Source: Sulfurimonas sp. | GTDB lineage: Bacteria > Campylobacterota > Campylobacteria > Campylobacterales > Sulfurimonadaceae | Length of the DNA stretch: 64,000 nt | Direction: 5' to 3' | NCBI GenBank assembly: GCA_028689055.1 | Contig: JAQTWZ010000005.1 | Location: forward strand, 29,647 to 93,646 | In this document: positions 42,433 to 60,884 of the stretch, piece after piece | Layout: each line of letters begins with the position of its first letter | How positions within the stretch are numbered: the stretch's first letter is position 1 | Notes under the pieces: generated by a model | What the model saw: only the letters and a program-made list of their open reading frames with translations | Told to the model about the DNA's origin: nothing | Database searches by the model: none | Translations under genes and position numbers: made by a program

Positions 42433-42473
42433 TTAACAAAATATATTAATTTACTTTAATTTTGGATTTATTT

Positions 42474-43379
42474 ATGAACATGCAAGAATGTAAAATTTGT
42501 AATAATAATGCTCAGCACCATGCATATAGTACAGAAAAAGATAGTCAAGTAGTTGATTGTTCTTATTGCGGAAAATATTATTTAATGCATTTGTTTGAAA
42601 CAGACATTTACAATGATAAATCTAATTTTTACAAAGTATCAAGCTGGATACGAGAACAAAATGATGAGTTTCATATTAACCCTGAAATATCACAAGAAGT
42701 ATTTGAAGATAAGTTAAATATGAGAGATAAAAGAATCAAAGAGAAATTTGATTTGATGATGCAGTATTTTTCAAATGCTACTAATCGTTTTCAATTAGAT
42801 AAAAAAATATTAGTTAAATGTTGGATGAAAAATGAAAATGAATTTGCTAAACTTTATCAAAAAGCAGTAGATACGATATTATTAGACGGTCCATTAATAA
42901 AAATGCTAAGTGGTTTTAGTTATCCCATATTCCTTGGCTTAACATTTGACGGTCTTGAATACATCGAAAACCTAGCCAATCCAAACCAGTCATCAAAAAA
43001 TATATTTGTAGCCTTTAATTTTGAAGACAACTTAAAAGAAGTTTTCAATGTACATGTAAAGAGTGCCATAGAAGAAAACGGTTTTAATTATGTTGTAGTA
43101 AATCAAGATAATGTTGAACACAACAAAAGCATAAACGATGAGATAATCGTAAAACTAAAATCCTCAAGAATCGTAATAGCAGACTTCACAAACCATAGAC
43201 CTAGTGTTTATTTTGAAGCAGGCTTTGCGATGGGCATGAACATACCTATCATCTGGACTTGCCAAGAAGGACACGATCAAGATATGTCATTTGACACAAG
43301 ACAGTTCCCTCATATTATTTGGAAAGATAAAGATGATTTGGTGAAACAGGTTATGGATAGAATCAAGGTGATACTGTAA
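42474..43379 (+). CDS. Zinc-ribbon + nucleoside 2-deoxyribosyltransferase-like/TIR-like protein
   Basis: CKIC...CSYC motif; C-terminal NIFVAFNFEDNLKEVFNVHVKSAIEENGF...RIVIADFTNHRPSVYFEAGFAMGM. Confidence 0.75.
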   Translation: MNMQECKICNNNAQHHAYSTEKDSQVVDCSYCGKYYLMHLFETDIYNDKSNFYKVSSWIREQNDEFHINPEISQEVFEDKLNMRDKRIKEKFDLMMQYFSNATNRFQLDKKILVKCWMKNENEFAKLYQKAVDTILLDGPLIKMLSGFSYPIFLGLTFDGLEYIENLANPNQSSKNIFVAFNFEDNLKEVFNVHVKSAIEENGFNYVVVNQDNVEHNKSINDEIIVKLKSSRIVIADFTNHRPSVYFEAGFAMGMNIPIIWTCQEGHDQDMSFDTRQFPHIIWKDKDDLVKQVMDRIKVIL

Positions 43380-43380
43380 A

Positions 43381-45438
43381 ATGAAAGAATTATTACAACA
43401 GGTTAAAGATTTAAAATCAGAGTACAAATATAAAGAAGCAAGAGATTTTATAGATGAAAATACAACAGATGCTAATTTGTTGAGAATACTTGCAGAGTGT
43501 TACTATAAAGATTTGGAGTTACATAGAGATTTTTCTTATGATAAAGCCTTAAGAATTTTAGGCAAAATTGATGATACAAGCGATAACGATAAAAAAGAAA
43601 CATTATGCCTAAAAGGTGCAGTATATAAGAGAAAGTGGGAATATCAGGCAAAGTTAGATGATTTGTATGAAGCAATCAAAAATTATGAAGAGGCTTATAC
43701 AGAGCATAAAGATAATGATAGAGGATATGGCGCTATAAACGCAGCATATCTTTATGATGTTTTGGCAAATACGTTAGGTAATGTAGGTTTTAAAAATTAT
43801 CAAGAATTTGAAGAAAAAGCTACAAAAATTCGACAAGATATTATCAATGCATTTAATAACAGTAAAAGTGATAGATGGATATATCATACTTTGGCACAAG
43901 CCTATTTGGGTATAAGCGATCTTTCTACATGTAAAGAAATTCTTCAAGAGAGTTTGAATAAAAATTATAACTACAGTGACTGGGAAACATATACAACTTT
44001 TAAACAGATGAGAGAACTCGCAAAATTAAAAAAGATAGAAAATTTAGATGTTTTACTTCCACTTGTCGGTGAAGATAACAGACATCTACTAGAGACAACT
44101 TTAGACAAAAAAGGCTTGGCACTTTCAGGCGGTGGTTTTCGTGCTAGTTTTTTTCATCTAGGAACTTTGGCAAAGCTTGCAGAATGTGACTTACTTAAAG
44201 ATATAGAAGTTATCTCAACCGTATCCGGTGGAAGTATAATAGGTGTTCACTACTACTTAAAACTTCAAAAAATGCTTGAAGAAAAAAGTGATATAGAGAT
44301 AACACAAGCTGACTATATAGAACTCGTTCATGAATTGATAGAGGAGTTTTTTGAAGCGGTACAAACAGATATACGAAATAGTGTTATAACAAAAAACTTT
44401 TTCTCAAACACAGTCGTAAAAATTTTAAATCCATTTTCTAGTTATAGCAGAACTAATAAACTAGGTCAACTCTATCAAGAAAGAATCTATAAAAAATATA
44501 AACAATATATGCATGAGTTAATTATCACTCCCCACGGTTGGGAAGATGGAAAATTTAAACCAAGGTTTCATAATTGGAGAAGAAAAAATAAAGTGCCTAT
44601 TTTAGTCATCAATGCCACAAATCTAAATAGTGGTCACAACTGGCAGTTTCAAGCAACAAAAATGGGTGAACCTGACTACATGTACAATATGGAGATAGAT
44701 AAAAACAACAGATTTGATTGGGTGCGATATACAGATAAAGGGCTACAAGAGAAGTTTAAAAACTACTCTATAGGACAAGCCGTTGCTTGTTCATCTGCCG
44801 TACCAATGTTATTTACCCCTGTTGTTTTAGAAGATCTATATGAGGGATACAAACTCAGCATATCTGATGGCGGAGTGTACGACAATCAAGGTTTTAGCGG
44901 ACTTTTAAGTGAAGAGTGTGACTATATAATCTGTAGTGACGCATCAGGACAGATGGATAATCAAATTACCTCACACACTTCCATACTCAGAACAAACATG
45001 AGAACCATAGATATTCAAATGGATAGAAACCGAGAGATGATTTTTGAAGATATGCAAAATAAAAAAGAGAGAGGTATATTAAAAGGCTTTCTGTTCACAC
45101 ACCTAAAACAAAATTTACAAGCTTATGAGATAAATCAAGCTGATGCAATACAAAAATTTGAAGATAACCAAGACAAAGAGTTTCAGGAGTTGATTTCAGA
45201 TGTGAGAACCGACTTAGATAAGTTTTCTAAAACAGAAGCTTATGCTCTCATGTATAATGGATATGAGTTATTTCAAGGACAAACAAAATCAATGAAAGAT
45301 TGTCATAAAAAAGATGATTGGGTATTTTTAAGTATAAAAAATGATGTTGATAAAAAGTCGGAGAAGTTGATGGATGAGTTGGAGTTGTCGGAGCACCAAT
45401 TTACAAGAAGGTTTAGAAAATGGTGGAAGAGTAGATGA
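43381..45438 (+). CDS. TPR/TRAFs-binding-like domain + patatin-like phospholipase
   Basis: N-terminal CLKGAVYKRKW...GYGAINAAYLYD; patatin SGGGFRASFFHLG, STVSGGSIIG, SDGGVYDNQGF (Ser-Asp dyad). Confidence 0.85.
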   Translation: MKELLQQVKDLKSEYKYKEARDFIDENTTDANLLRILAECYYKDLELHRDFSYDKALRILGKIDDTSDNDKKETLCLKGAVYKRKWEYQAKLDDLYEAIKNYEEAYTEHKDNDRGYGAINAAYLYDVLANTLGNVGFKNYQEFEEKATKIRQDIINAFNNSKSDRWIYHTLAQAYLGISDLSTCKEILQESLNKNYNYSDWETYTTFKQMRELAKLKKIENLDVLLPLVGEDNRHLLETTLDKKGLALSGGGFRASFFHLGTLAKLAECDLLKDIEVISTVSGGSIIGVHYYLKLQKMLEEKSDIEITQADYIELVHELIEEFFEAVQTDIRNSVITKNFFSNTVVKILNPFSSYSRTNKLGQLYQERIYKKYKQYMHELIITPHGWEDGKFKPRFHNWRRKNKVPILVINATNLNSGHNWQFQATKMGEPDYMYNMEIDKNNRFDWVRYTDKGLQEKFKNYSIGQAVACSSAVPMLFTPVVLEDLYEGYKLSISDGGVYDNQGFSGLLSEECDYIICSDASGQMDNQITSHTSILRTNMRTIDIQMDRNREMIFEDMQNKKERGILKGFLFTHLKQNLQAYEINQADAIQKFEDNQDKEFQELISDVRTDLDKFSKTEAYALMYNGYELFQGQTKSMKDCHKKDDWVFLSIKNDVDKKSEKLMDELELSEHQFTRRFRKWWKSR

Positions 45439-48400
45439 GTAATAGTATTGAAATTTTTGTAAGTTACTCTCATGAAGATATAGAACATGTGAAAAATCTG
45501 CAAAACTCTCTAAAAGATTATAAAAATATTAAACTGTGGACTGATGAAAATATCAGAGTTGGAGATAAATTCAATAAAAAGATTTATACTAAAATCAAAC
45601 AAAGTGACATCATTATATTTTTCTTTAGTATTCATCTAATGAAAAGAAATTTTTCTTATGTAAAAGATGTCGAAATACCTCTTGCATTAATCGAAAATAG
45701 AAAAAGAAGTATTCAAATTTTGCCACTTATTGTAGATAAAGACGCTTATACTTCAGTTTTTTATGAAGCGTTGAAAAAAGATTTTGTAACACTTCCCGAA
45801 CATAACAAACAATCAAAAGCGATAAATGAGTTTCAAAAAAATAAATGGTGGAAACCTTGGAAAAAAGTTCCTAATCCTTGGGATGTTGTAAGAGCAAATA
45901 TAGAAGAACTTGTCTCAGGTAGTGATTTTAAAAAATATTTACAAAATAAAAAAGATGTGTATTCTGAAAATGTCAATATAGATAAGATTGAGAATTTTGA
46001 CAAATATATCACAAGAGAAATTGAAGTAGATATCAAAAAGTGGTGGGAAACAAACACTTCATCTTGCTATATACAAGGTGATGAAGGAGTTGGAAAAACA
46101 TTTTTAGCTCTTAATATTGCAAATAAGATGCAAATGGATGGAATCATCTCATTTTATCTCAAAAGTTTAGAGTGGAACGGTTGTAAAACAATCAAAGAAA
46201 TTTTAGTTCAATCGTTTGGATTTAAAGATGAAAATGAAATAAATGATATAAACGAATTTTTGAACGGTTTTGAAAAACCTATTTTAATAGTTCTTGATGG
46301 AGTGAATGAAAAAGGCGCTTTAGAAGTTGTAGATAACATTTTAAATGATTATTTTAAAGAGAGTCTGTATCAAGAAAAAATCAGATTTATATTTACAACA
46401 AGAGATTTATCAAATTATAGTAATTTTAATAAGCCTTTATGGAACAAATTAAATAAATTTTTAGTTAATCCATATAGTGCAGCAGAACTAAAAGAAGCCA
46501 TTTCTAAGTTTGAACCAGATTTTGATTTTGAACAATTTCCAAAAAATCTTATTCCTACTGCTTCAATAGCACGATATTTAAAGTTAGCACTGAATTTGAA
46601 AGATAAATTTGGTTGTTATGCTAATGTAACTAAGGAAATTTTATATTGGGAAGGTCTGAAAGAACAGATTGAGAACGATATGAAAATTAGGTTTGACTTG
46701 ACTATTACCTCAGAAAATATTGAAAGATTACTAACTAAATTAATAAATAATTGCCAAATAGAAGATTCTAAGGTAACAACAAATGATAAAAAACTGGAAG
46801 GTATTTTTGGTAAAAATTTTTTAAATATTGAGAATTCACTAAGAGAAATTAGATTAATTGAAGATATTGATTCTGACAGTACTATTACGGTAAATTCAAA
46901 TCATATAGTAATTGCATATTCAATCTATTTGTTAAATAAATTTGAAGAAATTGATACTACTTTAGAAGTAGAGGAGATAGCCGATAAGTTTAAATCTTAT
47001 TTGGAACCTTATGATAATGATTTTATATCGAATGTTCCTTTTTTGATTTTTCAATTATCTTTAGATCGAAACGATAAAAATGACAATATTTCGAAAATTC
47101 ATTCGGGATTATTATATCTATGGCTTAATAATCATAATTCAAATATACGCACTGAAAATTTAAAATTATGGTGTGAAAGAGATTTAAGTTCATTTATAGA
47201 GATATTAGACATAGTGGAATTCAAAAATAAAGACTTTAATCGAAACAATTTACAAGAAATAATGTTGGCAGTATTGTGTGAAGTTTGGCGCGAAAGTCAT
47301 GGTCAAAACGAAAATCTGAAAGACTATCTTAAATCTATATTTTTAGGTACAACAACATATAAAGAAAATCATAATATTGCAAGATTTAAGAGGGGTATAA
47401 TTATTCTTGCACATTTTCCAACAGAAGAATTTTTAGATATTTTTGCTCAAAAAATCAAAGATTTAAGTGAAGAAAATTGGGGTATGTATTATGTTGTAAA
47501 AGAGGCTATATTATTTGAATATATACCAATATTATTTAGATTTGGGTATCAAGAAGATATCTTTAGTGTATTGATAGAAAAAGATGATTTTAAAGAGCTT
47601 GCAAAAATGTATAAATCACACTCTTTATCTGAGACGTTCTCATTGGAAGTAGAACCGATAAATAGAAATAATTCTATATCTGCTTTTGTAAAAAAAATTG
47701 GAGAAAATCAAAAACTATTAGATGACTTTGATGTGGAAAATTTCAAAATATATGAAGTAAGTGGGTTATCTAATATTGCATGTAGAAGAGATTTGATCAT
47801 AGATAATGAAGATAAGAAAAAAGTTATTGAAATTTTAGAACAATTATTTAATGAGTTTACAAAACAAGAGAATAGAAATATATTTCCATATCGCTGGGTA
47901 TATGATAATTTTCCATATTTATTGGCTTCTTTTGATAGTATAACTTTCAACAGGATCAATTCACAATTTCTTTTTCAAACAATCAAACAAAAAGCTAATT
48001 GGCATAGAGTTCAAGGTTTTCACTTAACAATATTACCAAATAAAGACCTGCCAAAATATATTTTATCCAATATTGAGAGTTTGACTACTTTTGAACAAGA
48101 GCATGAAAAAACAACTTTTTTAAATCAATTGATAGAAATGATTCTGTTTACGGCAGATGAAAAACAATTGGAGAGTTTCTTTAATTACCTTATTGACGAG
48201 CTAAAATTTTCAATCATTTTTATAAGAAATCATCCTGTAGACATTTATATCAGAGAGCTATTTGGCACAAAACTATTGAATATGATACATACAAAATTAA
48301 ATGAAAAACCAGAGAAAGAATTAGAAGAAACGTTAATGACTTATCTGTGTCTATTGAATGATTTTAACAATCAACACTTGATTGCTTGGGCTATTGAAAA

Positions 48401-49610
48401 ACTAGAAGATATTTCAATCGAAGATGATAAAAAAGAGTTTTATCGTACTATATTGATGAACTCATCTCCGTCAAAATATTTTGAAGATATATATTTACAT
48501 AAAGATCTGAAAATATATTTTTATGAATCTAATAGTAGTCGTGGAGGAGCTTATTTAACTTATTGGATAACAAGAGAAAAAGGATTTTACAACAACAAAC
48601 CGTTTGATGAATTAATTGATATTTTACCTCTTGACACTGTTGGTAATTTGTTATTTCATAATGAAAGATATGATGATATCAATCTATGGGGAAAATATAT
48701 ATTTGACAACTTAGCACCGCAAGACATGAACGATTATGACGTCTTTGAAGCCATTAAAAAGTACTCTGAACAAAATAATGATGAATTTGAATCCTACGCT
48801 ATAAAATATTTAACTAAGGCTAATGATACCTATGAAAATGGAGGAAGACATTTCCCACCGTTGAGAGTATTTGAGGATGCTTTAATTACTTTGCTTCTGC
48901 CTATAAATTTTGACAAATCTGTAGAGTTTTATAATAAAACCAAAAAATTCCGGCATATCTCAAATAGCTTTAATCGTGAAATTTTTAATGCTGAAAAATA
49001 TTGTGAGGCAAAACATAAAATATATCGAAAAGAGTATATTCAATCACTGAAAAGGGATATTGATATTTTGCATATTGCAAGAATGTCTCATCAAAACAAT
49101 AGTCAAAAAGAATTGATGGAGTTTATTGAAGAATGGCTTGTAAGCAAATATGCTACTGATAGATTATTGGCGGTTTCTTTGTTGACTTGGTTCGGTGATA
49201 ATTCTTCTATTGCATTACTAGAAAAGATCAAGTTTAATGATGATAGTGAATATGTAAGATATTTTGCTAGTTGGTCATTAGAAGTTGCAAAACAAGAAAA
49301 ATATGCAAAAAAGATATACGAAGAGATTTTACAAGAAGATACTTTAGAAGTTATTTCTGCAAAACTATATCAAATAAAACCAGTAATTACACCAATGGTA
49401 AATTATTGGGGTGTGGAGTTAAATGAAAAGTATGAATTCAATAAAACAGAAAAATACAAAAAGATTTTAATTCAAAGATTTTGGGATATTGTCAGCGAAA
49501 GTATCAAGGATGACAAAAATATAGAGATAAATCAAAGAAAATTATTAGGATATTATCGAGGTGAAGAGATTACAGATGCTAATAGATTTATAACTGGAGA
49601 GTTCAAATGA
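45435..49610 (+). CDS. TIR-STAND NTPase with long C-terminal helical-repeat region (1391 aa)
   Basis: N-terminal TIR EIFVSYSHEDIEHVKNLQ...WTDENIRVGDKF...KDVEIPLAL; Walker A GDEGVGKTFLAL; Walker B PILIVLDGVNEKG; C-terminal HEAT-like repeats. Confidence 0.85.
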   Translation: MSNSIEIFVSYSHEDIEHVKNLQNSLKDYKNIKLWTDENIRVGDKFNKKIYTKIKQSDIIIFFFSIHLMKRNFSYVKDVEIPLALIENRKRSIQILPLIVDKDAYTSVFYEALKKDFVTLPEHNKQSKAINEFQKNKWWKPWKKVPNPWDVVRANIEELVSGSDFKKYLQNKKDVYSENVNIDKIENFDKYITREIEVDIKKWWETNTSSCYIQGDEGVGKTFLALNIANKMQMDGIISFYLKSLEWNGCKTIKEILVQSFGFKDENEINDINEFLNGFEKPILIVLDGVNEKGALEVVDNILNDYFKESLYQEKIRFIFTTRDLSNYSNFNKPLWNKLNKFLVNPYSAAELKEAISKFEPDFDFEQFPKNLIPTASIARYLKLALNLKDKFGCYANVTKEILYWEGLKEQIENDMKIRFDLTITSENIERLLTKLINNCQIEDSKVTTNDKKLEGIFGKNFLNIENSLREIRLIEDIDSDSTITVNSNHIVIAYSIYLLNKFEEIDTTLEVEEIADKFKSYLEPYDNDFISNVPFLIFQLSLDRNDKNDNISKIHSGLLYLWLNNHNSNIRTENLKLWCERDLSSFIEILDIVEFKNKDFNRNNLQEIMLAVLCEVWRESHGQNENLKDYLKSIFLGTTTYKENHNIARFKRGIIILAHFPTEEFLDIFAQKIKDLSEENWGMYYVVKEAILFEYIPILFRFGYQEDIFSVLIEKDDFKELAKMYKSHSLSETFSLEVEPINRNNSISAFVKKIGENQKLLDDFDVENFKIYEVSGLSNIACRRDLIIDNEDKKKVIEILEQLFNEFTKQENRNIFPYRWVYDNFPYLLASFDSITFNRINSQFLFQTIKQKANWHRVQGFHLTILPNKDLPKYILSNIESLTTFEQEHEKTTFLNQLIEMILFTADEKQLESFFNYLIDELKFSIIFIRNHPVDIYIRELFGTKLLNMIHTKLNEKPEKELEETLMTYLCLLNDFNNQHLIAWAIEKLEDISIEDDKKEFYRTILMNSSPSKYFEDIYLHKDLKIYFYESNSSRGGAYLTYWITREKGFYNNKPFDELIDILPLDTVGNLLFHNERYDDINLWGKYIFDNLAPQDMNDYDVFEAIKKYSEQNNDEFESYAIKYLTKANDTYENGGRHFPPLRVFEDALITLLLPINFDKSVEFYNKTKKFRHISNSFNREIFNAEKYCEAKHKIYRKEYIQSLKRDIDILHIARMSHQNNSQKELMEFIEEWLVSKYATDRLLAVSLLTWFGDNSSIALLEKIKFNDDSEYVRYFASWSLEVAKQEKYAKKIYEEILQEDTLEVISAKLYQIKPVITPMVNYWGVELNEKYEFNKTEKYKKILIQRFWDIVSESIKDDKNIEINQRKLLGYYRGEEITDANRFITGEFK

Positions 49611-50395
49611 ATGAAATAGACTATTGGGTATCTAAAGTAAAATGGGATGCAAATGGAACAAGAATTATTTCTATGTATGTTCACCTAAATGAAGATAACT
49701 CCGTGGGTGTATATGAAGAAATGAGCCGTTATGACATCATTAAATATATCAATGATGGTTATATATTTTGTTCAATTATTAAACAAGAAAATGGCAAATG
49801 GCAAAAAGGCAATTATGTAATTACGGATGGTTCATTATTAAAAAATATAGACAGCAAGCTACCTTTTATCCAAACAAAAAGAAAAACCTTTGTCAGTTAC
49901 TATCACAAAGATGATTCAGATTATAAGAAAAAGTTTTTGAATTTGATGGATGATTTGATTGTCAATAAATCTGTTGAAGATGGTGACATTAACTCCGATG
50001 TCAGTGACGAATATGCAAAGCAAATGATACAAAAAGGTTTTCTGCATGACACCACAGTATTAATCGTATTGTTGAGCAATAAGACGAAATGTAGAAAGCA
50101 TGTAGATTGGGAAATCAGCGGTGCGTTGAATTACAAAGTTGGTGATAGTTATGCTGGATTATTGGGATTAAAGTTGCCAACTCATGATGATTATGTAAGC
50201 GGGAAATGTACCTACAGCAAAATACCTGATCGGTTGGCAGATAATTTTAAATCAGGCTATGCAATTGTCAGAGACTACACAACAGATAGAAAAATACTAC
50301 AGGGATATATTGAAGAAGCTTATAGTCTTCGAAAGAAAAATGCTGACAAGAGAGTGAATTCGAGAGTTCAGATGAAAAATGATACTTGTGAATAG
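49607..50395 (+). CDS. DUF3892-like + MTH538-type TIR-like (DUF1863) protein
   Basis: KTFVSYYHKDDSDYKKKFLNLMDDL...TTVLIVLLSNKTKCRKHVDWEISGAL; N-terminal DYWVSKVKWDANGTRIISMYVH. Confidence 0.75.
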   Translation: MNEIDYWVSKVKWDANGTRIISMYVHLNEDNSVGVYEEMSRYDIIKYINDGYIFCSIIKQENGKWQKGNYVITDGSLLKNIDSKLPFIQTKRKTFVSYYHKDDSDYKKKFLNLMDDLIVNKSVEDGDINSDVSDEYAKQMIQKGFLHDTTVLIVLLSNKTKCRKHVDWEISGALNYKVGDSYAGLLGLKLPTHDDYVSGKCTYSKIPDRLADNFKSGYAIVRDYTTDRKILQGYIEEAYSLRKKNADKRVNSRVQMKNDTCE

Positions 50396-50406
50396 AAGGG
50401 ATTTTT

Positions 50407-53400
50407 ATGCAAGAAAAAGAATTATTTGAACGATTTAAAAATAAGCTTATTGAAGAGTATTCCTATTATGAACAAGATATAAAATTTGAAGTCAAGATAG
50501 ATATATTAATCAATAATATTAGATATATTCCAGATATAGTTGTTTATAAAGATCAAAAACCTTACATAATTATCGAGCTAAAACATAATTACTCGCAAAG
50601 AATATTCGAACTAGCTTTTGAAAAAGTTTCACAAGCTACACGATCTTTAGATGCCAAATATTGTGCGATTGCTACTTTGGATTTTATTGAAACTTATGAA
50701 TTGAAAAATGATGAATTTTTCATGATTCCAAATATCCCCAATAGAATAGGGGAGTTTTATTTAAAAAATCGACTAGATATTGATGAAATTCATTTTAAAT
50801 ATTTATTTAATGAAATTAAAGACATATTATGGTCCGGCGGAAAGAGGGACAGCTACACGATAATCAATGAATTTAATAAAATTCTTTTGGTCAAATTTTT
50901 TATTGACGAAATGCTCTTAAAAGATAGTAAAAGTTTTTTTGAAAACTATAAGTTTGACTCTATGCCAGATATAAATAACTTGTTTTTTACTGCAAATGCA
51001 AACTTTAAAATATTTGAAGATTCAGACAAAATAAATTTAAATCAAAAAGAAATAGAAAAAATAATAAATATTTTAGACGCGATTGGATTATTGCATTTAT
51101 CACATATTGATAAAATCTATTATGATGTTTTTACTAAAGATTTAAAAAATGGAGAAGTTTTTTTATCTGAGGATGCAGTAAATTTTTTGAGTAAAATTCT
51201 TGATAAAACACAAATGACTTTACTTGCAAATAGTGGGTTTGGTCAATTGTCTTTAGAACTTTCAAATCGACTGCAAAATTTTGATTTTATTGAACCTAAT
51301 AGCATAAAGTATAGAACAAATTTAATACTACAGCTTATTAAGGGTACTCACTCAAAACATCAATTAGGCGAGTTTTTGGATGATGATGATGTTTTTAAAT
51401 ATGATACTTTTGGGCAAATAGTATCTACCCCACCTTTGAATATTAGGACAAAAGAATATAAATCCTACCAGCTTACTAAATATACTTCAGGAACAGACAT
51501 CTCTGCATTGCATATAGAAAAATCCCTAAATATATTGCATGAAAATGGACTATTGTTTGTAACTGTATCAGATAGTATTTTGTCAAATCAAATGTTTTCT
51601 TATGTAAGAGACTTTATAAAACAATCTTGTCAGATCCTAGCAATATTATCGTTTGAAGATGGGATATTTTTGAATATCAAGATACCGTCTTCGTTATTGA
51701 TTTTGAAAAAACAAAAAATACATGATTATCATGTCCTAGTTAAAAACATTGATGTCAACGATATTGATCAAGATATACAATTAATCAAAGCCTTTATACA
51801 ATATCAACAACCTAGTGAAAATACTCTTCATATTAATGTACTGAATGATAGTGATAGATGGGATTGTCACTATTATAAAAAAGAATTTTTAGAGATTGAA
51901 AATAAAATAAGCAATGTTAAACATAAATTTTTAGCTGATTATGTAGAGACAATACGAGGTGGGAGTTTAGGACATAATCAGATAGGTACAATTAATTTAA
52001 TAACTGTTGGAACTATCCAAAATGGGCAACTTGAAAAAAGCAAATTAAGTCTTATTACAGATGAACAAAACGATAAAAATAGACGTAGTGTAGTTAAAGA
52101 AAATGATGTACTAGTGAGTGTCGTTGGGAAATATCCTAGATGCGCTAAGGTTACTGCTGAATTTGTAGGGTCAAATACAAACTCAGGTATTGTAATCCTT
52201 AGAATGAAAGATGGTTTTGAAAGTAAAGTTGATGAGATTTATGAGCATTTAAATTCCAAATTAGGTCAAGTTTTATTACACAGGGGTGTTTCATTTACAT
52301 CAACCGTTCCTATTCTGACGCAAAAAGAATTGGAAAAAATACCAATCATTGATAGGTATGACAACAATGAAATATTGGAATTTATAGATCAAGTTAAAGA
52401 AATACCACTATTTAAAAGTCAGCAAGAAGAGAATCTTATAGATGAGGAAGAAATTGAACCTGACAATATAATTTTATCATTAAATGGGCTAAAGGGAAAA
52501 GTATTTGGTCTTGAAGTAATTCGATGTTTTATAAATTTAAAAAACCTAGTCAATTTTGAGATAAACAATCAAAACTTTCAAAGAGAAATAGATGATGCTC
52601 ATAAAAATGAGCTCATAGAATTTTTAAATAAAAGTAATTATAAATTTTTTCCTGAAATTGTTCTAGCTATTAGAGATATTGATACATTAATTGAACAAAA
52701 AGCCGTTTCTTTAATTGGTATGGAACCATGTATACAGTTGAATTTTCATGATACAGAAGATCCGCAAAAAAATGTATATCAAAATATTGAAATACTAGAT
52801 GGAAGACATAGAATTAAATCATTAAAAGACTATATAGAAAAGGATAATTCGCATGAAAATCTAACAGTTTCAATTATATTTATTTTGTTAAGTGATAGTG
52901 ATACTAAAAAGCTAGTACAAAGGGCAATATTTTATAATTTAAATGCGAAAGCCAAGCCTTTGCTTCCTAAAGATTATTTGAATTTACTCGAAAACGATCC
53001 CCATAATACATTGAAAGAACTAGAAATTACCAATATTGACCTATTTAAACACTTATCATTGAATAAATACAAGATATACAATTTAAGTGAAAGCAACGAA
53101 AGCATTCTGGAAAAATGTATAGATATAGCCTATCAATTAAGTTCTCATTTTAAGTCAAATGATTTGAAAAAATTAGACTTTTTTATTACTTTGTTAGAAA
53201 GACAAAATAGCAGGATTTTAAAAAAATATGATATCCATTTAAAAACAAAATTTTATATTTTGATCATTAATATAATAAGTGAAACTAGACTGAATAGAAA
53301 TAAAATCAATGACTATCTGGATAAAGAATTGGCTGGATTTATTGAGTGGTTGGAACTTTCAAATCTCTTTGAATCACTTCAAAAAATCAGTGAATTGAAA

Positions 53401-53970
53401 GATTTTTACAAGACATATCAACAAACATATGTGCCAAAATCAAGAAAAATATATATATCTATGCCTTATCATAAAGAAACAGAATGGACATACTTTTTGA
53501 TTAAAGATGTCATTAATGATATATCAAATAATTTAAAGATCAGAATAGAACCTATAAGAACTGACCAACAAACAAATGGTGTTCATACTGGAATTAGCGA
53601 AACTGTTTATAATGAAATAGCATCTTGTGATTTGATGATTGCTGATTTAACGGGCGGAAATGCAAATGTATTCAATGAAGTCGGTTTTAAAATGGGATTG
53701 GATAAAGCACAAGGTCTAAAGGAAACACAAATTATTTTTATCGTTAATTCTAAATGTTACTATGAAGAGCATTTAGAAAATGAAAGTTTCGTTGATGGTG
53801 AATATAAAGTTAGTGGTAAAGTTCTTAAAAATAGTGCGAAGCAAGTACCATTTAATTTGAGAGGTATTAAACATATAGAGTTTTATAACAGTCACTATTT
53901 AAAAGCTGAATTATACAAAGAGCTAGAACAATATTTTAGTTATTACAAAATTACAAAAGTTTCGAAATAG
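50407..53970 (+). CDS. Multidomain fusion: HsdR_N-like nuclease, degenerate HsdM-like MTase, HsdS-like region, DndB/DGQHR-like domain, NDT-like domain
   Basis: PDIVVYKDQKPYIIIELK (PD-(D/E)xK); HsdM-like body with motif IV as STPPLN; IRGGSLGHNQIG...VKENDVLVSVVG; ILDGRHRIKSL...NLNAKAKPLLPKDYL; KIYISMPYHKETEW...MIADLTGGNANVFNEVGFKMGL. Confidence 0.75.
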   Translation: MQEKELFERFKNKLIEEYSYYEQDIKFEVKIDILINNIRYIPDIVVYKDQKPYIIIELKHNYSQRIFELAFEKVSQATRSLDAKYCAIATLDFIETYELKNDEFFMIPNIPNRIGEFYLKNRLDIDEIHFKYLFNEIKDILWSGGKRDSYTIINEFNKILLVKFFIDEMLLKDSKSFFENYKFDSMPDINNLFFTANANFKIFEDSDKINLNQKEIEKIINILDAIGLLHLSHIDKIYYDVFTKDLKNGEVFLSEDAVNFLSKILDKTQMTLLANSGFGQLSLELSNRLQNFDFIEPNSIKYRTNLILQLIKGTHSKHQLGEFLDDDDVFKYDTFGQIVSTPPLNIRTKEYKSYQLTKYTSGTDISALHIEKSLNILHENGLLFVTVSDSILSNQMFSYVRDFIKQSCQILAILSFEDGIFLNIKIPSSLLILKKQKIHDYHVLVKNIDVNDIDQDIQLIKAFIQYQQPSENTLHINVLNDSDRWDCHYYKKEFLEIENKISNVKHKFLADYVETIRGGSLGHNQIGTINLITVGTIQNGQLEKSKLSLITDEQNDKNRRSVVKENDVLVSVVGKYPRCAKVTAEFVGSNTNSGIVILRMKDGFESKVDEIYEHLNSKLGQVLLHRGVSFTSTVPILTQKELEKIPIIDRYDNNEILEFIDQVKEIPLFKSQQEENLIDEEEIEPDNIILSLNGLKGKVFGLEVIRCFINLKNLVNFEINNQNFQREIDDAHKNELIEFLNKSNYKFFPEIVLAIRDIDTLIEQKAVSLIGMEPCIQLNFHDTEDPQKNVYQNIEILDGRHRIKSLKDYIEKDNSHENLTVSIIFILLSDSDTKKLVQRAIFYNLNAKAKPLLPKDYLNLLENDPHNTLKELEITNIDLFKHLSLNKYKIYNLSESNESILEKCIDIAYQLSSHFKSNDLKKLDFFITLLERQNSRILKKYDIHLKTKFYILIINIISETRLNRNKINDYLDKELAGFIEWLELSNLFESLQKISELKDFYKTYQQTYVPKSRKIYISMPYHKETEWTYFLIKDVINDISNNLKIRIEPIRTDQQTNGVHTGISETVYNEIASCDLMIADLTGGNANVFNEVGFKMGLDKAQGLKETQIIFIVNSKCYYEEHLENESFVDGEYKVSGKVLKNSAKQVPFNLRGIKHIEFYNSHYLKAELYKELEQYFSYYKITKVSK

Positions 53971-53980
53971 GAAGTAATAA

Positions 53981-55288
53981 ATGAATCCCCTCTGCTTCGT
54001 ACTCATGCCATTCGGTAGCAAAAAAGATGAAAATGGTCAGCTAATTGACTTCGATAAAATTTACAGCGATTTTATAAAACCATCCATTGAAGATGCAGGA
54101 TTAGAGCCTATCCGTGCAGATGAAGAGCAGATAGGGGGGATCATCCATAAACCTATGTATGAGAGATTGATGCTGTGTGAGTATGCTGTAGCTGATCTGA
54201 GCACGGCTAATGCTAATGTATTTTATGAGCTGGGCATCCGTCATGCTATTCGACCTCATAGCACCATTTCCATATTTAGTTCCGATACCAAACTCCCTTT
54301 TGACATCAACTTTTTACGCTCATTACCGTATGACAGAGAGCTGAGCGATTTAGAGAGTTTAAAAAAACAGCTCACGGAAAAACTGCTCCATGCCAAAAAA
54401 GAGAAACATACCGATTCGCCTCTCTTTCAACTCGTAGATGGACTCGCACCCTCAAATATCGAGCATATAAAAACGGATGTATTTCGGGAAAGGGTTGAAT
54501 ACAATAAAACAATCAAAAGCCAACTCAAAAGTGCACGAGAAATAAAACCTAAAGAGGATGCAAAAGTAGTGTTGAAAAATTTGCACTCGTCTCTTGGAAC
54601 TTTGAGCGAAATAGAAGCAGGGGTGATTATAGATCTTTTTCTGTCCTACAGAGCCGTTGAAGCGTATAGCGAGATGGTAGAGTTGGTGTCACTCATGTCA
54701 AAACCTTTGCAACAAACGGTAATGGTGCAAGAACAATTAGGATTTGCACTCAACAGAGTAGGGCGGAGAAAAGAGGCGATAGAAGTTCTCGAAGAGGTAA
54801 TAAACAAGCATGGTAAAAACAGTGAAACATGCGGAATCCTCGGACGAGTGTATAAAGACTATTGGCAAGTGAATAGTTCAAATGAGACTCTGGCAAAAGG
54901 GTATTTGAAAAAAGCGATTCAGACCTATTTAGATGGATTTGAATCTGATTTTAGAGACGCTTATCCCGGAATCAATGCGGTTACGCTCATGGATATTTCC
55001 GGAGATAAACGAAAAGACGAAATTTTGCCCGTGGTCACATATGCGGTAAAACAAAAGATGAAAAGTAGTGCCGATTATTGGGATTATGCGACGCTTTTAG
55101 AATTAGCGATACTTGAAAATAACCAAGAAAAAGCACAAGAGCTGATTTCAGATGTTTTAGTACATGTAAAAGAAGATTGGGAGAAAAAAACTACTGCCAA
55201 TAACATCAAATTTATTCGTGAGCATAGAGAATCAAAAGGTCTAGAATGTGCATGGCTAACAGAAATAGAAAAGAAATTAAATCTTTAG
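53981..55288 (+). CDS. NDT-like/TIR-like domain + TRAFs-binding-like (DUF4071-type) protein
   Basis: CFVLMPFGSKKDENGQLIDFDKIYSDFIKPSIEDAGLEPIRADEE...AVADLSTANANVFYELGIRHAI; C-terminal LGRVYKDYWQ...DAYPGINAVTLM. Confidence 0.82.
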   Translation: MNPLCFVLMPFGSKKDENGQLIDFDKIYSDFIKPSIEDAGLEPIRADEEQIGGIIHKPMYERLMLCEYAVADLSTANANVFYELGIRHAIRPHSTISIFSSDTKLPFDINFLRSLPYDRELSDLESLKKQLTEKLLHAKKEKHTDSPLFQLVDGLAPSNIEHIKTDVFRERVEYNKTIKSQLKSAREIKPKEDAKVVLKNLHSSLGTLSEIEAGVIIDLFLSYRAVEAYSEMVELVSLMSKPLQQTVMVQEQLGFALNRVGRRKEAIEVLEEVINKHGKNSETCGILGRVYKDYWQVNSSNETLAKGYLKKAIQTYLDGFESDFRDAYPGINAVTLMDISGDKRKDEILPVVTYAVKQKMKSSADYWDYATLLELAILENNQEKAQELISDVLVHVKEDWEKKTTANNIKFIREHRESKGLECAWLTEIEKKLNL

Positions 55289-55307: not shown

Positions 55308-55562
55308 ATGACTCAACAAAATAGTACATTGCTTACTGATGGAAAAATGTTTTTTGACAATATAGTCCCAAAGTTTTTAAATAAATTTGTTGCTAAAAGT
55401 AAAAAAGATTTTTGGCAAAGATATTTTGATTCAATGAATCCTAAAAAATTTCTCGGTTATGATTCAGAAAAAAGTTACCTAGAGATTCATAACTTTACAA
55501 AAAAGCAAATAGTTTTGAATTCAATTCATGATATTTACAGTGATTTAGATACAAAAGGTTAG
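55308..55562 (+). CDS. Hypothetical protein (84 aa)
   Basis: ORF in frame between operon and RMD1-like gene, 5 nt upstream of the next ORF. Confidence 0.4.
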   Translation: MTQQNSTLLTDGKMFFDNIVPKFLNKFVAKSKKDFWQRYFDSMNPKKFLGYDSEKSYLEIHNFTKKQIVLNSIHDIYSDLDTKG

Positions 55563-55567
55563 AAAAG

Positions 55568-56359
55568 ATGGCTAGCACAAAGCAAACAATGGAACTTCTG
55601 GCAATTTACACACTTAAACCTCTCTCTATTGCAGCAATAGAAAAAACTTTGGGTATAACTTTTAAAAAGGCGATAGAAGCGACGCATTATGCACAAATTG
55701 GGGAAGCGATGATCGCTTACACAAATTTTAATGTGCTCACTCTTATAAACTGGACTAAAGAGAGTGCGCAAGAGACACTCAGTTCTATAGGTGTTATAAA
55801 TGATGCAAGTACAATCAATCAAGATTACCCGATTCTTGTCGATTCATCTATTGAGAAAGCTTTTACTATCGACAATGAAAAAATTACACTCAAAGAGCTA
55901 AATATTCTCAATCTTATTATTATCTCTCATGTCATCTCTCAAAGTGTCGCGCTTGAGGTGTATGAGAAAAAACTCTCTGAATATTATGAGAAAAGTAGAA
56001 AACTTATTATCGATGTGAGTACTTTTTCTATTTATAAACGCAATTTGTTGGCAAAGTTTTCAAAACAGCTTGTACTCATTCGCCATGACATGCTTATTGA
56101 CCTTTTTCTTTTAGATAAGCCAAATATTCTTTGGGACAATGAAAACGCGGAACTTCTCTACAACAAACTCGCTTCAAGTCTTGAACTCAAAGACCGTTTT
56201 GATGTGATAGAGTACAAGCTCGATAGCATCAAAGATGACATCGCTATGATTATGGATCTAACCAACCATAACCATAGTTCATTTTTGGAATGGATCATTA
56301 TTATCCTCATCATGATTGAGATAGTTATGAGTTTAATGGAGTGGTTTGGGTTAAAGTAG
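55568..56359 (+). CDS. RMD1/DUF155-family membrane protein
   Basis: C-terminal KLIIDVSTFSIYKRNLLAKFSKQLVLIRHDMLIDLFLLDKPNILWDN...LEWIIIILIMIEIVMSLMEW. Confidence 0.75.
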   Translation: MASTKQTMELLAIYTLKPLSIAAIEKTLGITFKKAIEATHYAQIGEAMIAYTNFNVLTLINWTKESAQETLSSIGVINDASTINQDYPILVDSSIEKAFTIDNEKITLKELNILNLIIISHVISQSVALEVYEKKLSEYYEKSRKLIIDVSTFSIYKRNLLAKFSKQLVLIRHDMLIDLFLLDKPNILWDNENAELLYNKLASSLELKDRFDVIEYKLDSIKDDIAMIMDLTNHNHSSFLEWIIIILIMIEIVMSLMEWFGLK

Positions 56360-56705: not shown

Positions 56706-57704
56706 TTAAAATCTATCTTTTGCAAAGTGTGCCGCACCCAAAAGGGCGGTCTCAGCATTGAGTGATATTTTTACAGACATCTGCATGAGCATCTCTTCAA
56801 ATCGTCCTTTGGAAACAAAACCTTGCATAAAGTGCTTTTGTTGCATGAGCGACAAAATCTTTGGAGCGATACCGCCGCCGATATAGACACCTCCGAGAGA
56901 GAGTGATTTGAGAGCAAGATTGCCGGCTTCTGCACCGTAAATCTCCGTGAAGAGTTCAAGTGTTTTGAGACACAGGGCATCGTTGTGTTCAAGTGCGCAT
57001 CGGCTGATAAGGGCGCTTTTGTCTGTATTTTTCTCTGCGTTTTGTATCATAAGCGGCTCAGGAATTTGCAACTCTTCTTGCAAAAAGTCATACAAAGCGG
57101 CGATTCCCGGCCCTGAAAGAATCCGCTCATAACTCACATGAGCAGGGTAGTGTCTGCGAAGCCAGAGTAAAAGGGCATCTTGCAGAGGTGAAGTCGGAGC
57201 AAAGTCACTATGTCCACCTTCTGAGCCTAGCGGATGGTAACTCTCTCCATCATAAAAGAGCATACCTTCCCCCAGACCCGTGCCTGCGGCGATAACTGCT
57301 TTGTTGCCTTTGCGGTTTTGCGCGTTTTTGTTGAGTTCTACAAAACTCTCCTCAGGAAGATAGAGCATCCCGTACGCTGTTGCTTCGAGGTCGTTCATCA
57401 AACGCACATTTTGTGTGGCTAAACTCTTTTGCAGAGCCGAGGTGCTGATATGCCACGGCAGGTTTGTTGTCTTGCACTCTGCGTCGATGATAGCTCCTGC
57501 GATACCAAAACAGGCTGCGTTTATCAAAGGATGAGAGCTGTTTTGTAAAAACGCAGCGATAACTTCATCAAAACTCTCAAATGCCCCACTTGAAAACTGC
57601 TGCTGCGTTTGAAGTGCTAAGACTCCATCGACAACTTTATAGAGTGCCAGATTTGTTTTTGTGCCACCAATATCGCCTGCTAGTATCATAGAATCCTCTT
57701 TCAT
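56706..57704 (-). CDS. glk: Glucokinase
   Basis: ILAGDIGGTKTNLALY, AAGTGLGEGMLF, GVYIGGGIAPKIL. Confidence 0.94.
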   Translation of the reverse strand: MKEDSMILAGDIGGTKTNLALYKVVDGVLALQTQQQFSSGAFESFDEVIAAFLQNSSHPLINAACFGIAGAIIDAECKTTNLPWHISTSALQKSLATQNVRLMNDLEATAYGMLYLPEESFVELNKNAQNRKGNKAVIAAGTGLGEGMLFYDGESYHPLGSEGGHSDFAPTSPLQDALLLWLRRHYPAHVSYERILSGPGIAALYDFLQEELQIPEPLMIQNAEKNTDKSALISRCALEHNDALCLKTLELFTEIYGAEAGNLALKSLSLGGVYIGGGIAPKILSLMQQKHFMQGFVSKGRFEEMLMQMSVKISLNAETALLGAAHFAKDRF

Positions 57705-60700
57705 TTAGCGCTCTTGTGTTGTCAAAAGATGCACAAAAGCATCGACAAAATTTTTGTCCGTCTCTTTTGGAGAAAGTTTATAAAAACTCTCCCAAGCCTG
57801 AGCTTTTTGCTCATCATAGTTACCATCTATATTGTGTTTGCTCCAAGCGATTTTGACAGCATGACCAATCAAAACATCAAGTATAATGTCACTATTGACA
57901 TAAAGCTCTGGACTTTGTCTAAATATTTTTGCCAGCGTTTTGATAAGTTCGATATTGAGTTGACGATAGTCAGGTGCTTCGATACTTTGCAAAAGCGTGT
58001 CGATATGCAGCTCAAAACTTCTCTCACCCGGAGTAAACTCATGAGTGCTCTCTGAAGAGATACGGTTTTGCAGGCTGTACTTATCTCCGACTATCAAACC
58101 TCTGCACTGTTGGAGCAGATGCCAGGTATCTTTATAAAAACATTGAGAAAGTCCGCTTATCATACCGACTTCTTCTCTCCAAAGCGCCCAATTTTCGTTG
58201 TGAGTATCTTCGTACAAAAGATACTGCGAGGTGATGTCATGTGGGTTTGAGAGTCCCGAGGCACTCAGGTTTTCCAGCTCAGAGAGTTTTTGTACTTCTT
58301 TACTAAACGACTGCAAAATCAAACGCAGTCGGTTGTAGATATCATGCGGGGCAAGAGAGAGCAGCACTTCATAAGCATCCCCGATAGCAATGGCTTTTTC
58401 TCTCACGAGTTGCCCCACGAGTAGCTGTACAAAATACCACGTACGCAGAGTGAGCATATTGGTAAAGAGCTCCGGTTCACTGCGTATCAGATGCCCTAAA
58501 TGCAAAATAATCTCCTGTGTGAGGATACTTTCAGCGATATTATTGCCACAAAATTCTTGGATGGTTTTTACGATAAACGCACTCTCATGAGGTTTTGAAA
58601 AGGTGGCTTTTTCGCTATAAGCACGTCCGACGGCGAGGCGTTTTTGTGAGATGATGATATCAAGTAAAACATCTTCGAGTCTATCATCAAACTTTTTGCT
58701 TATCTCGGCGATGTGGCGTGCTGTAGCCCAGTCATGACAAACAGATGCCATTTCATAATATTGTTGCGCGAGGGTAGAGAGCGTCAAAGAGACTTCATCT
58801 ATCTGTACTTCAAAATCCCTGCCGTGGCGTTTGCATAAAAGACCAAGTGCGTAGGCTGTTTCTGTACGGTTTTTCTTAGAGAGGAGGATATTGACTAAAA
58901 ACTCATCTTCGGCTGTATCAAATTCTTGAAGTCTTTGTGCATCCATAGGCATAGAACTCTCTGCTGTATTTGGTGCTCCACAAAGGGTTTGTTTGAGTGC
59001 GTGAAGTTCTATCTCTTTAGGTTTATAATCCTCTAAAAAATCTATACGCTCATAATCAACACTTGTGAGGAGTTGTTCGAGATGACCTGTTTTGATATTC
59101 ATAGTGGGTGTGTGTCTGTTTTGCAGCTCATGTAAAAGCTCAAGAATACTCTCTTGCGTATCATTTTGAAGCATATCTTCACGCACCAAAAAAGGAAGGA
59201 TAGGTTGTCCCGGCTGATCCCAGTGTTTTATCAAAAAGTTTATTGAAGCACGAAAATGTTGCGTCAGTAAGATGTTGTCATAAGAAAAATAAAAGCCTTG
59301 CGGGTTGAAATAGTAGGGAAGAAAAACCGTTCGCTCACCGTCAAGGATATGCAAACGAGCGGTAGTTATACTGCGAGTGACGCCAAAAGGTCTTCCCGTG
59401 AGAGAGAGTTTTTTGTTTGCCCCAAGCATTGTATGTATTTTTGATAGTTCGGCTGCATGCATGATGCGTATAGGTTTGACACTCTCTATGGTTTGACTTT
59501 GGATACCTAAGTTCAGAAGTCTTTGTGCGACATATTCGTTTGCACTGAGGATGCAGACCATAGGATAAACGCTGCGTTTATGTCCTATGCGTTTATGTCT
59601 TTGCAGAGGATCGATATCGCTTTTATCCAAAAGTCCGCTCATGATCATATCGCAAAGCATATAGAGACTTTGTGCCCAGACGAGAGGAATATTTTCATTT
59701 GGGATACGCACTTGAGAGTGTGGCTGTGCTTTTTCAGCTTCTATAGACTCTTTTGGGACGATGTAGAGTTCAGGAAGAAGCCTGACTCCATTTTCTTCGA
59801 CAAAGAGCGGTTCAAGTTTTTCTTTGTACTTTTGTATCTCTTGATGATCTTCACGCATGATTGCATCAAGAAGCAGATAGGTGAAAAAAAGCGGCCATTC
59901 GGATTCGATGTTTTCAAACTCACGCAGTTCAGAAGGCTCATAGTGCAGACGGGATTCATCTTCGAGCATACTTTGATGTCCATCAAGCAAAAAGCGTTTG
60001 CATCCATAAGATCCGGCTAGTTTTTTGAGTATCTTTTTGCGTGTACGCGCTACCAGTTCTTCATCTTCTACGGCGTATGCAGGATATCCGATGATACTCA
60101 AAAGTGCCGCGTCCGTCTCTTTGGAGTTTGATTCTCGTGGAAGCAGACCGTGAAGTGTAAAACGTGAGCGTGCGATATCGTTTGGTACGACATGGATAAG
60201 AGCTTCATTGCCTGATACATTGCCAAAAAGATTGCAACCGCTCATGGCTTCAAGAGCAGCTTTTGCCATACCTACTGAGCTACAATTTATCTCCGTCGTC
60301 CCATGATTTTTTTTATTTCCGCGCTCCCAAATACCATAATCAGGGGTACAGTAAGTGCGGCTGATATAGTGCACAAGATTTTGTACAAAATTGACTTCAT
60401 CAATCGTATAAATAATCTTAAGTCCCGAAGCACTCATCTGTGCAAGCATCAAAAGATAAAGTGAAGTGGCATCAAGCTGCAGATGTCCCCATTCATCATC
60501 ACCGACGACTGCAAGAGCGGTTGTTGTCCCATACTTAGCATGAAGTGCGTCGATAGGATTGTTGCTTTTTTTATAGGCTTCGAGTTTATCTGCTTGTCGC
60601 ATCATTGCATTTAAGAGCCCGCGCATAAGTTTGACGACACTTTGAGAGAGGAGATGTGTGCGGTAGTGCTCGGGATAAAACTTAGAGTACGAAAGCCCAA

Positions 60701-60884
60701 GTCCCCAAACGCTCATGATACTATAAACGTTGTCCCGTACCCAAGCGTCTGTGTAGTCTCCATGAGCAGTGATAGCCGTACTTGCGGGCAAAAGCCCTGT
60801 TATGGGATCTTGACGGGAGAGAATAATCTTCTCTATTGATTGATACTGTTTTTCAAGTAAAGGGGCTATTTTCTCTAAGTTCAT
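57705..60884 (-). CDS. Phosphorylase-kinase alpha/beta-like (GH15-related) protein
   Basis: DPITGLLPASTAITAHGDYTDAWVRDNVYSIMSVWGL, ALAVVGDDEWGHLQLDATSLYLLMLAQM, YGIWERGNKKNHGTTEINCSSVGMAKAALEA. Confidence 0.85.
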   Translation of the reverse strand: MNLEKIAPLLEKQYQSIEKIILSRQDPITGLLPASTAITAHGDYTDAWVRDNVYSIMSVWGLGLSYSKFYPEHYRTHLLSQSVVKLMRGLLNAMMRQADKLEAYKKSNNPIDALHAKYGTTTALAVVGDDEWGHLQLDATSLYLLMLAQMSASGLKIIYTIDEVNFVQNLVHYISRTYCTPDYGIWERGNKKNHGTTEINCSSVGMAKAALEAMSGCNLFGNVSGNEALIHVVPNDIARSRFTLHGLLPRESNSKETDAALLSIIGYPAYAVEDEELVARTRKKILKKLAGSYGCKRFLLDGHQSMLEDESRLHYEPSELREFENIESEWPLFFTYLLLDAIMREDHQEIQKYKEKLEPLFVEENGVRLLPELYIVPKESIEAEKAQPHSQVRIPNENIPLVWAQSLYMLCDMIMSGLLDKSDIDPLQRHKRIGHKRSVYPMVCILSANEYVAQRLLNLGIQSQTIESVKPIRIMHAAELSKIHTMLGANKKLSLTGRPFGVTRSITTARLHILDGERTVFLPYYFNPQGFYFSYDNILLTQHFRASINFLIKHWDQPGQPILPFLVREDMLQNDTQESILELLHELQNRHTPTMNIKTGHLEQLLTSVDYERIDFLEDYKPKEIELHALKQTLCGAPNTAESSMPMDAQRLQEFDTAEDEFLVNILLSKKNRTETAYALGLLCKRHGRDFEVQIDEVSLTLSTLAQQYYEMASVCHDWATARHIAEISKKFDDRLEDVLLDIIISQKRLAVGRAYSEKATFSKPHESAFIVKTIQEFCGNNIAESILTQEIILHLGHLIRSEPELFTNMLTLRTWYFVQLLVGQLVREKAIAIGDAYEVLLSLAPHDIYNRLRLILQSFSKEVQKLSELENLSASGLSNPHDITSQYLLYEDTHNENWALWREEVGMISGLSQCFYKDTWHLLQQCRGLIVGDKYSLQNRISSESTHEFTPGERSFELHIDTLLQSIEAPDYRQLNIELIKTLAKIFRQSPELYVNSDIILDVLIGHAVKIAWSKHNIDGNYDEQKAQAWESFYKLSPKETDKNFVDAFVHLLTTQER

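Follow-up and report, generated by a model that had tools for sequence, protein, structure and literature searches.

The window analysed here is a stretch of 64,000 nucleotides from Sulfurimonas sp. (GenBank assembly GCA_028689055.1, contig JAQTWZ010000005.1), and its positions 42474 to 55288 hold six plus-strand genes that we read as a candidate immune operon built around TPR-S (Tetratricopeptide Repeats-Sensor) and TIR proteins. All six open reading frames (ORFs) are free of internal stops, and the junctions between successive ORFs measure +1, -4, -4, +11 and +10 nucleotides; the original prediction for this DNA had described six co-oriented ORFs with ATGA overlaps or gaps of 1-11 nucleotides, and its coordinates and junctions are exact. 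Gene 1 has an alternative TTG start upstream, at 42462. Searches of the encoded proteins against Pfam, PADLOC and NCBIfam gave the following layout.

42474..43379, plus strand: gene 1, zinc ribbon and NDT/DRHyd domain
43381..45438, plus strand: gene 2, TPR-S and patatin phospholipase
45435..49610, plus strand: gene 3, TIR, STAND/NACHT-like NTPase and a C-terminal region without a match
49607..50395, plus strand: gene 4, N-terminal domain and ThsB_TIR
50407..53970, plus strand: gene 5, HsdR_N, pseudo-N6-methylase, HsdS, DndB/DGQHR and NDT
53981..55288, plus strand: gene 6, NDT/DRHyd and TPR-S/MAP3K-TRAF-binding repeats

Most of the domains named earlier are recovered by these searches, the exception being a DUF3892-like N-terminal domain in gene 4, for which there is no Pfam support. 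The regions of genes 2 and 6 that had been called TRAFs-like are real, and their current names are TPR-S and MAP3K_TRAF_bd. In gene 6, an NDT/DRHyd domain (53981-54400) lies N-terminal to the TPR-S domain (54662-54991; E-value 4e-27, 95 bits against a cut-off of 27.6), and the MAP3K_TRAF_bd match reaches an E-value of 1e-47. Across 79 homologues, the DRHyd residues D72, N77, N79 and E83 are at least 95% conserved. The protein also matches human ASK1 (MAP3K5) by sequence (5ulm, E-value 1.4e-8; 8qgy, E-value 1.5e-8), and an AlphaFold model (predicted local distance difference test score, pLDDT, 84.7), computed from an alignment that left out rows from annotated public records, has full-length ASK1 (8qgy) as its top PDB match, with an E-value of 9.7e-9 over 433 alignment columns. 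In sequence the resemblance covers the TPR-S region, and in fold it extends over almost the whole of gene 6; unlike ASK1, gene 6 has no kinase domain, and its NDT active-site residues are conserved. On sequence and predicted fold, gene 6 corresponds in bacteria to the regulatory half of ASK1.

The second TPR-S protein, the product of gene 2, couples its TPR-S domain (43429-43752; E-value 2e-13, 51 bits, same cut-off) to a patatin domain (44116-44889; E-value 4e-16) whose SGGGFR, VSGGS and DGG motifs are intact, and it is predicted to be a TPR-S-gated effector acting on membrane lipids. Gene 1 begins with a zinc ribbon of the CxxC..CxxC type (C6, C9, C29 and C32), followed by an NDT/DRHyd domain at approximately 43047-43304 (Nuc_deoxyrib_tr, E-value 1.2e-5, just below the Pfam cut-off; PADLOC TIR-effector model, E-value 7e-18); the catalytic-type Glu is present, and the NDT motif D..N.N...E takes a variant form, DFTNHRPSVYFE. 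Gene 3 combines TIR_2 (45453-45749; E-value 1e-13) with a NACHT/STAND P-loop NTPase (about 46065-46403) whose Walker A motif, GDEGVGKT, is intact, and ends in about 870 residues without a domain match; we predict it to be an invader sensor. Gene 4 carries ThsB_TIR (49889-50176; E-value 1e-14, 54.7 bits against a cut-off of 21.2) with a DWE motif. ThsB_TIR is the former MTH538/DUF1863 family, and the MTH538 TIR-like domain named in the original prediction is this one. The catalytic Glu of the TIR and ThsB domains is intact in genes 3 and 4, and gene 4 is a predicted NAD+-consuming signal generator. Both DRHyd and TIR domains have been described as NADases or cyclic ADP-ribose-forming enzymes (PMC9503650).

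The operon is accessory and near-absent from its phylum: gene 6 occurs in 2 of 398 Campylobacterota genomes, gene 2 in one (its own genome), and gene 3 is in none of 298 other Campylobacterota genomes, a search of 299 phylum genomes or plasmids having given no full-length homologue. GC content is 26-33% in the operon versus 37-44% in the flanks, and by gene it is 27% for genes 3 and 5 and 39% for gene 6. A genome scan found 199 relatives of gene 6 in many phyla. There was no DNA-level match to gene 6 in E. coli genomes, and the phage matches listed are confined to roughly the first 135-163 residues of gene 6, with identities no higher than 35%.

With which genes do relatives of gene 6 keep company? 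We compared the operonic neighbours of gene 6 homologues with ORFs more than 5 kb away at the same loci (132 each). TIR_2 was found 15 times among neighbours and 3 times among distant ORFs (Fisher p 0.003), TPR-S 11 versus 2 times (p 0.010) and ThsB_TIR 8 versus at most 1 (p 0.018, with the control set to 1, the family being absent from the control families listed). SLATT (7) and abhydrolase (6) are further neighbours among the 132, and abhydrolase-TPR-S, pYEATS-TPR-S-patatin, QueC and Ogg proteins recur nearby. TPR-S-patatin proteins resembling gene 2 lie close to gene 6 homologues in 8 loci. Such genes are present in 16 of 50 genomes bearing gene 6, versus 1 of the 398 genomes of the phylum, and in 7 of those 16 they lie within about 10 kb of gene 6, where 0.09 would be expected; because the taxa differ between the two sets, this contrast describes co-distribution and is not a strict test. 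Relatives of gene 4 sit with TPR-S on Acinetobacter and Vibrio plasmids, in minimal versions of the operon (TIR/ThsB_TIR/TPR-S and ThsB_TIR/SLATT/TIR/TPR-S, respectively), and with TIR-SLOG in Aureispira (56% identical to gene 4). Because gene 4 relatives pair with either domain, TPR-S and SLOG may be interchangeable readers of the TIR product, as these pairings suggest.

These partners also bear on a different view of TPR-S. The central region of ASK1 works as part of a protein complex that includes thioredoxin and TRAFs, and this, together with the homology of gene 6 to ASK1, counts for TPR-S being a protein-protein scaffold. STAND/TIR oligomers would then physically recruit the products of genes 2 and 6, as happens in the ASK1 signalosome, and killing would be direct. 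We find this improbable: TPR-S recurs with TIR, ThsB_TIR and DRHyd, enzymes that process NAD or nucleotides, and in Aureispira its position is held by a SLOG domain.

A related operon is on the Aliarcobacter plasmid pM830MA (L003:5733-19150), which carries relatives of gene 1 (73% identical in the NDT part; a full-length relative at 49.5% is on a Hydrogenimonas plasmid), gene 2 (66%), gene 4 (68%) and gene 6 (65%), together with a TIR-STAND protein resembling Avs3a (E-values 3e-51 and 6e-32) and an extra TIR, and without gene 5. Its STAND gene and gene 1 are in pieces, through frameshifts or assembly errors. In PMC6690266 this is a putative virulence plasmid, and its patatin is listed under 'Invasion/Lipase activity'. 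Being a TPR-S fusion within a TIR/STAND/TPR-S operon, it is, by its gene context, more likely a defence effector than a virulence factor. The same listing, and the plasmid location of several relatives, would fit a non-antiviral role for the Sulfurimonas operon, such as plasmid competition, stress death or virulence. Patatins can indeed be secreted virulence factors. Gene 2, however, is a TPR-S fusion adjoining TIR/STAND genes, relatives occur in free-living bacteria of many phyla, and we regard such a role as very improbable. Co-occurrence, which the original prediction had named as a check, holds in part: genes 1, 2, 4 and 6 are together on the Aliarcobacter plasmid, and genes 2 and 6 are co-localised in several phyla, whereas the sequences searched hold no full-length relative of gene 3 and none with the complete architecture of gene 5. 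A trace of the operon may also survive in another genome (G134, L011:13768-15167), where the first 26 residues of a gene 1-type protein, the zinc-ribbon N-terminus, are fused straight to a gene 6 relative decayed by a premature stop and frameshifts; the gene 1 stretch scores 76 in alignment versus a shuffled mean of 25 (standard deviation 4.1, maximum 55). Such a scar is what would be expected after an internal deletion in an operon starting with gene 1 and ending with gene 6.

How new is this combination? None of the other genomes and plasmids searched holds the same set of six genes, and to that extent the description of the operon as undescribed holds; its core, in contrast, belongs to the TPR-S class, already known as a prediction. 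TPR-S/DRHyd immune systems were reportedly predicted in silico by Burroughs and Aravind in 2020 (J Bacteriol), a work to which we take the Pfam TPR-S entry PF20308 and PF20305 (TPR-S and pYEATS names) to trace. The class is said to use predicted NAD-derived messengers and to be a predicted ancestor of the animal ASK1 signalosome; the literature searched turned up no experimental test of it. The Sulfurimonas operon has TPR-S domains above the cut-off, a conserved DRHyd domain N-terminal to TPR-S and a fused effector. It shares with the class the DRHyd-TPR-S protein (gene 6), TIR genes in the operon, the homology to ASK1 and the fusion of TPR-S to a lethal enzyme, which is a patatin here and an abhydrolase or a pYEATS-TPR-S-patatin elsewhere. 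It differs in adding a second TPR-S protein, the unmatched TIR-STAND, the zinc-ribbon NDT protein and the gene 5 fusion.

Other named systems fit less well. A ThsB-type TIR (gene 4), the likely signal generator, is shared with Thoeris, but TPR-S proteins take the place of a SIR2-SLOG or Macro-type ThsA, and classic Thoeris was rejected, there being no SIR2, SLOG or Macro domain in genes 1-8 (the six genes and the two that follow). CBASS was rejected as no CD-NTase is encoded there, and Dnd as the DndB-like domain stands alone, without DndC, DndD or DndE. With Avs, the operon shares the architecture of a STAND sensor, and the TIR-STAND of its Aliarcobacter relative matches Avs3a; gene 3, in contrast, matches no Avs model, PADLOC giving TIR models and a weak mad8. 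Gene 5 shares HsdR_N, an N6-methylase fold and HsdS with type I restriction-modification (R-M) and MADS, and its split relatives match MAD2 and MAD5, but it is without a helicase motor and motifs I and IV, DndB-NDT is added, and other mad genes are absent. Type I R-M was rejected as these motifs are lost and the HSDR_N nuclease is not accompanied by a superfamily 2 helicase motor; MADS was rejected as gene 5 scores 25.7 bits against a cut-off of 720 and the sole other mad match is the weak one of mad8 to the gene 3 NTPase.

What is new here is gene 5 and the unnamed Campylobacterota cassette to which it leads. The protein comprises HSDR_N_2 of the PD-(D/E)xK type (50434-50739; E-value 8e-8), N6_Mtase (51313-51750; E-value 6e-8), HsdS with one target recognition domain (approximately 51910-52446; PADLOC E-value 7e-9), DGQHR/DndB (52567-53295; E-values 9e-11 and 4e-5, both below cut-off) and a C-terminal NDT domain (approximately 53524-53961). 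No relative with this complete architecture was found in any genome or plasmid searched, and its predicted structure, from a 16-row alignment, had a pLDDT of 46 and was not used. In five Campylobacterota genomes, however, the parts occur as three genes in a row, HsdR_N-HsdM (about 700 residues), HsdS (about 470-680) and DndB-NDT (410-550), in an order collinear with gene 5.

L103:8537-13630, minus strand: three-gene cassette
L104:8351-13320, minus strand: three-gene cassette
L105:4567-10392, L106:5040-9959 and L107:4057-9614: three-gene cassettes

DndB-NDT is split in one of these genomes (G033), and a further small ORF lies between the genes in another (G110). Judged by domain order, gene 5 joins this cassette into one chain, as a Rosetta-stone fusion. 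No published name for the cassette was found in a literature search, and its DndB-NDT protein is covered as a unit by no PADLOC or NCBIfam model. The split methylase is intact and MAD2-like (E-value 1e-93, below cut-off), and the split HsdS is MAD5-like (3e-25). Gene 5 had been assigned an HsdM domain: the N6-methylase fold is there, but catalytic motifs I and IV have decayed to NSGFGQLS and STPPL, versus DPSCGSGG and TNPPF in the split relatives, leaving a degenerate pseudo-methylase, and HsdS is about half-size. Because these motifs have decayed while the PD-(D/E)xK, DG(R)HR and NDT residues are kept, a conversion from R-M to a sensor or signal generator is suggested. With the methylase decayed and no HsdR motor, gene 5 is not an ordinary R-M enzyme; it would no longer methylate to protect self DNA, and DNA may trigger it to generate a signal or to act as a nuclease. 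The DNA-modification sensing proposed earlier is plausible. On a Leisingera plasmid (L007:8855-11098), one protein fuses an intact N6-methylase directly to DndB-NDT, without HsdS, and looks like an independent fusion or a deletion product of the same cassette.

A bolder and rather unlikely idea is that gene 5 represents a new class of immune sensor, an R-M complex collapsed into one chain with the methylase as a non-catalytic DNA reader. Recognition of foreign or unmodified DNA would then yield an NDT-made nucleotide messenger read by the ASK1-like TPR-S effectors, in parallel with the STAND sensor on the same output. The chief rival to a single pathway takes gene 5 out of it: genes 1, 2, 4 and 6, with or without gene 3, would be one TPR-S/TIR system, and gene 5 an independent cassette-derived defence protein in the same transcript. 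The five cassettes do stand alone, with no TPR-S genes beside them, the Aliarcobacter operon is without gene 5, GC content is mosaic among the genes, and DndB-NDT had no matches in the 50 gene 6-bearing genomes, a set without a positive control. Gene 5 nevertheless lies inside the operon, 11 nucleotides after gene 4 and 10 before gene 6, its NDT is of the same kind as those of genes 1 and 6, and its decayed methylase suggests that an independent R-M function has been lost. This account is possible, if on balance doubtful.

We favour a horizontally acquired, two-sensor TPR-S/TIR abortive-infection operon with an NAD-derived signal, and put its probability at about 0.5. The original prediction of a conflict operon that signals through nucleotides or NAD and has at least two potentially lethal effectors agrees with the domain content, the active sites (intact except in the gene 5 methylase), the low GC, the patchy distribution, the plasmid-borne relatives and the recurrent neighbours. 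The messenger, the triggers of the sensors, toxicity and defence are what we infer. The TIR-STAND protein of gene 3 would sense an invader product via its C-terminal region and oligomerise, and gene 5, formerly a type-I-like R-M module, would sense DNA through HsdS, HsdR_N and DndB. Activated TIR (genes 3 and 4) and NDT/DRHyd domains (genes 1 and 5) would make a messenger of the ADP-ribose type by cleaving NAD+ or nucleotides. Once bound by the TPR-S domains, this messenger would activate two outputs: the patatin of gene 2 would hydrolyse membrane lipids, and the gene 6 DRHyd domain would deplete NAD or nucleotides or amplify the signal. The infected cell would die before phage or plasmid could spread. 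Several points weigh against this reading. Comparable operons contain no relatives of gene 3 or of gene 5 in its full form, the binding of NAD-derived ligands by TPR-S is itself a prediction, and the six genes may not be one pathway, because GC content is mosaic and other Sulfurimonas (L012, L013) have gene 6 but none of genes 1-5. The locus packs into about 13 kb a pair of TPR-S outputs, several inputs of the TIR, STAND and NDT kinds and the decayed reader derived from R-M; it is compact enough for cloning and could therefore be used to test small-molecule sensing by TPR-S. The gene 5 fusion in turn points to an HsdRM/HsdS/DndB-NDT cassette that links R-M to nucleotide signalling.

Two further genes follow and may belong to the same transcript, although the place of the second in the unit is uncertain.

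55308..55562, plus strand: 84-residue ORF of unknown family, +19 nucleotides after gene 6
55568..56359, plus strand: DUF155 protein (RMND1/Sif2-Sif3-like), 263 residues, +5 nucleotides after the 84-residue ORF

The DUF155 protein is accessory in the genus and infrequent there: 3 of 26 genomes have it, with relatives 31-34% identical. Scans of the operon for promoters and terminators stayed at chance level. To the right, at 56706-60884 of the window, are a glucokinase gene and a long neighbouring gene (1059 residues). On the left, the flanking gene is conserved within the genus; the glucokinase is present in just 2 of 26 genus genomes, so that the right flank is accessory too, and because it is not conserved an empty-site test can demonstrate no clean insertion boundary.

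Three observations concern related loci. In G134, a HEPN/MNT-type gene pair lies directly upstream of the scar. A 77-kb Aureispira plasmid (L108:8272-12777) carries NDT, ThsB_TIR, TIR-SLOG, TIR and a gene 4 homologue, adjoining a type III-B CRISPR locus. Finally, Rhizobium and Agrobacterium plasmids (L004:10460-17332, L005:10456-17337) combine a gene 6 homologue with TIR, QueC, Ogg-HhH, a TIR protein with a weak TGT match, a PfkB-like kinase and DUF4231, a set that looks like a deazaguanine/oxoguanine-linked TPR-S system and occurs in about 8 loci.

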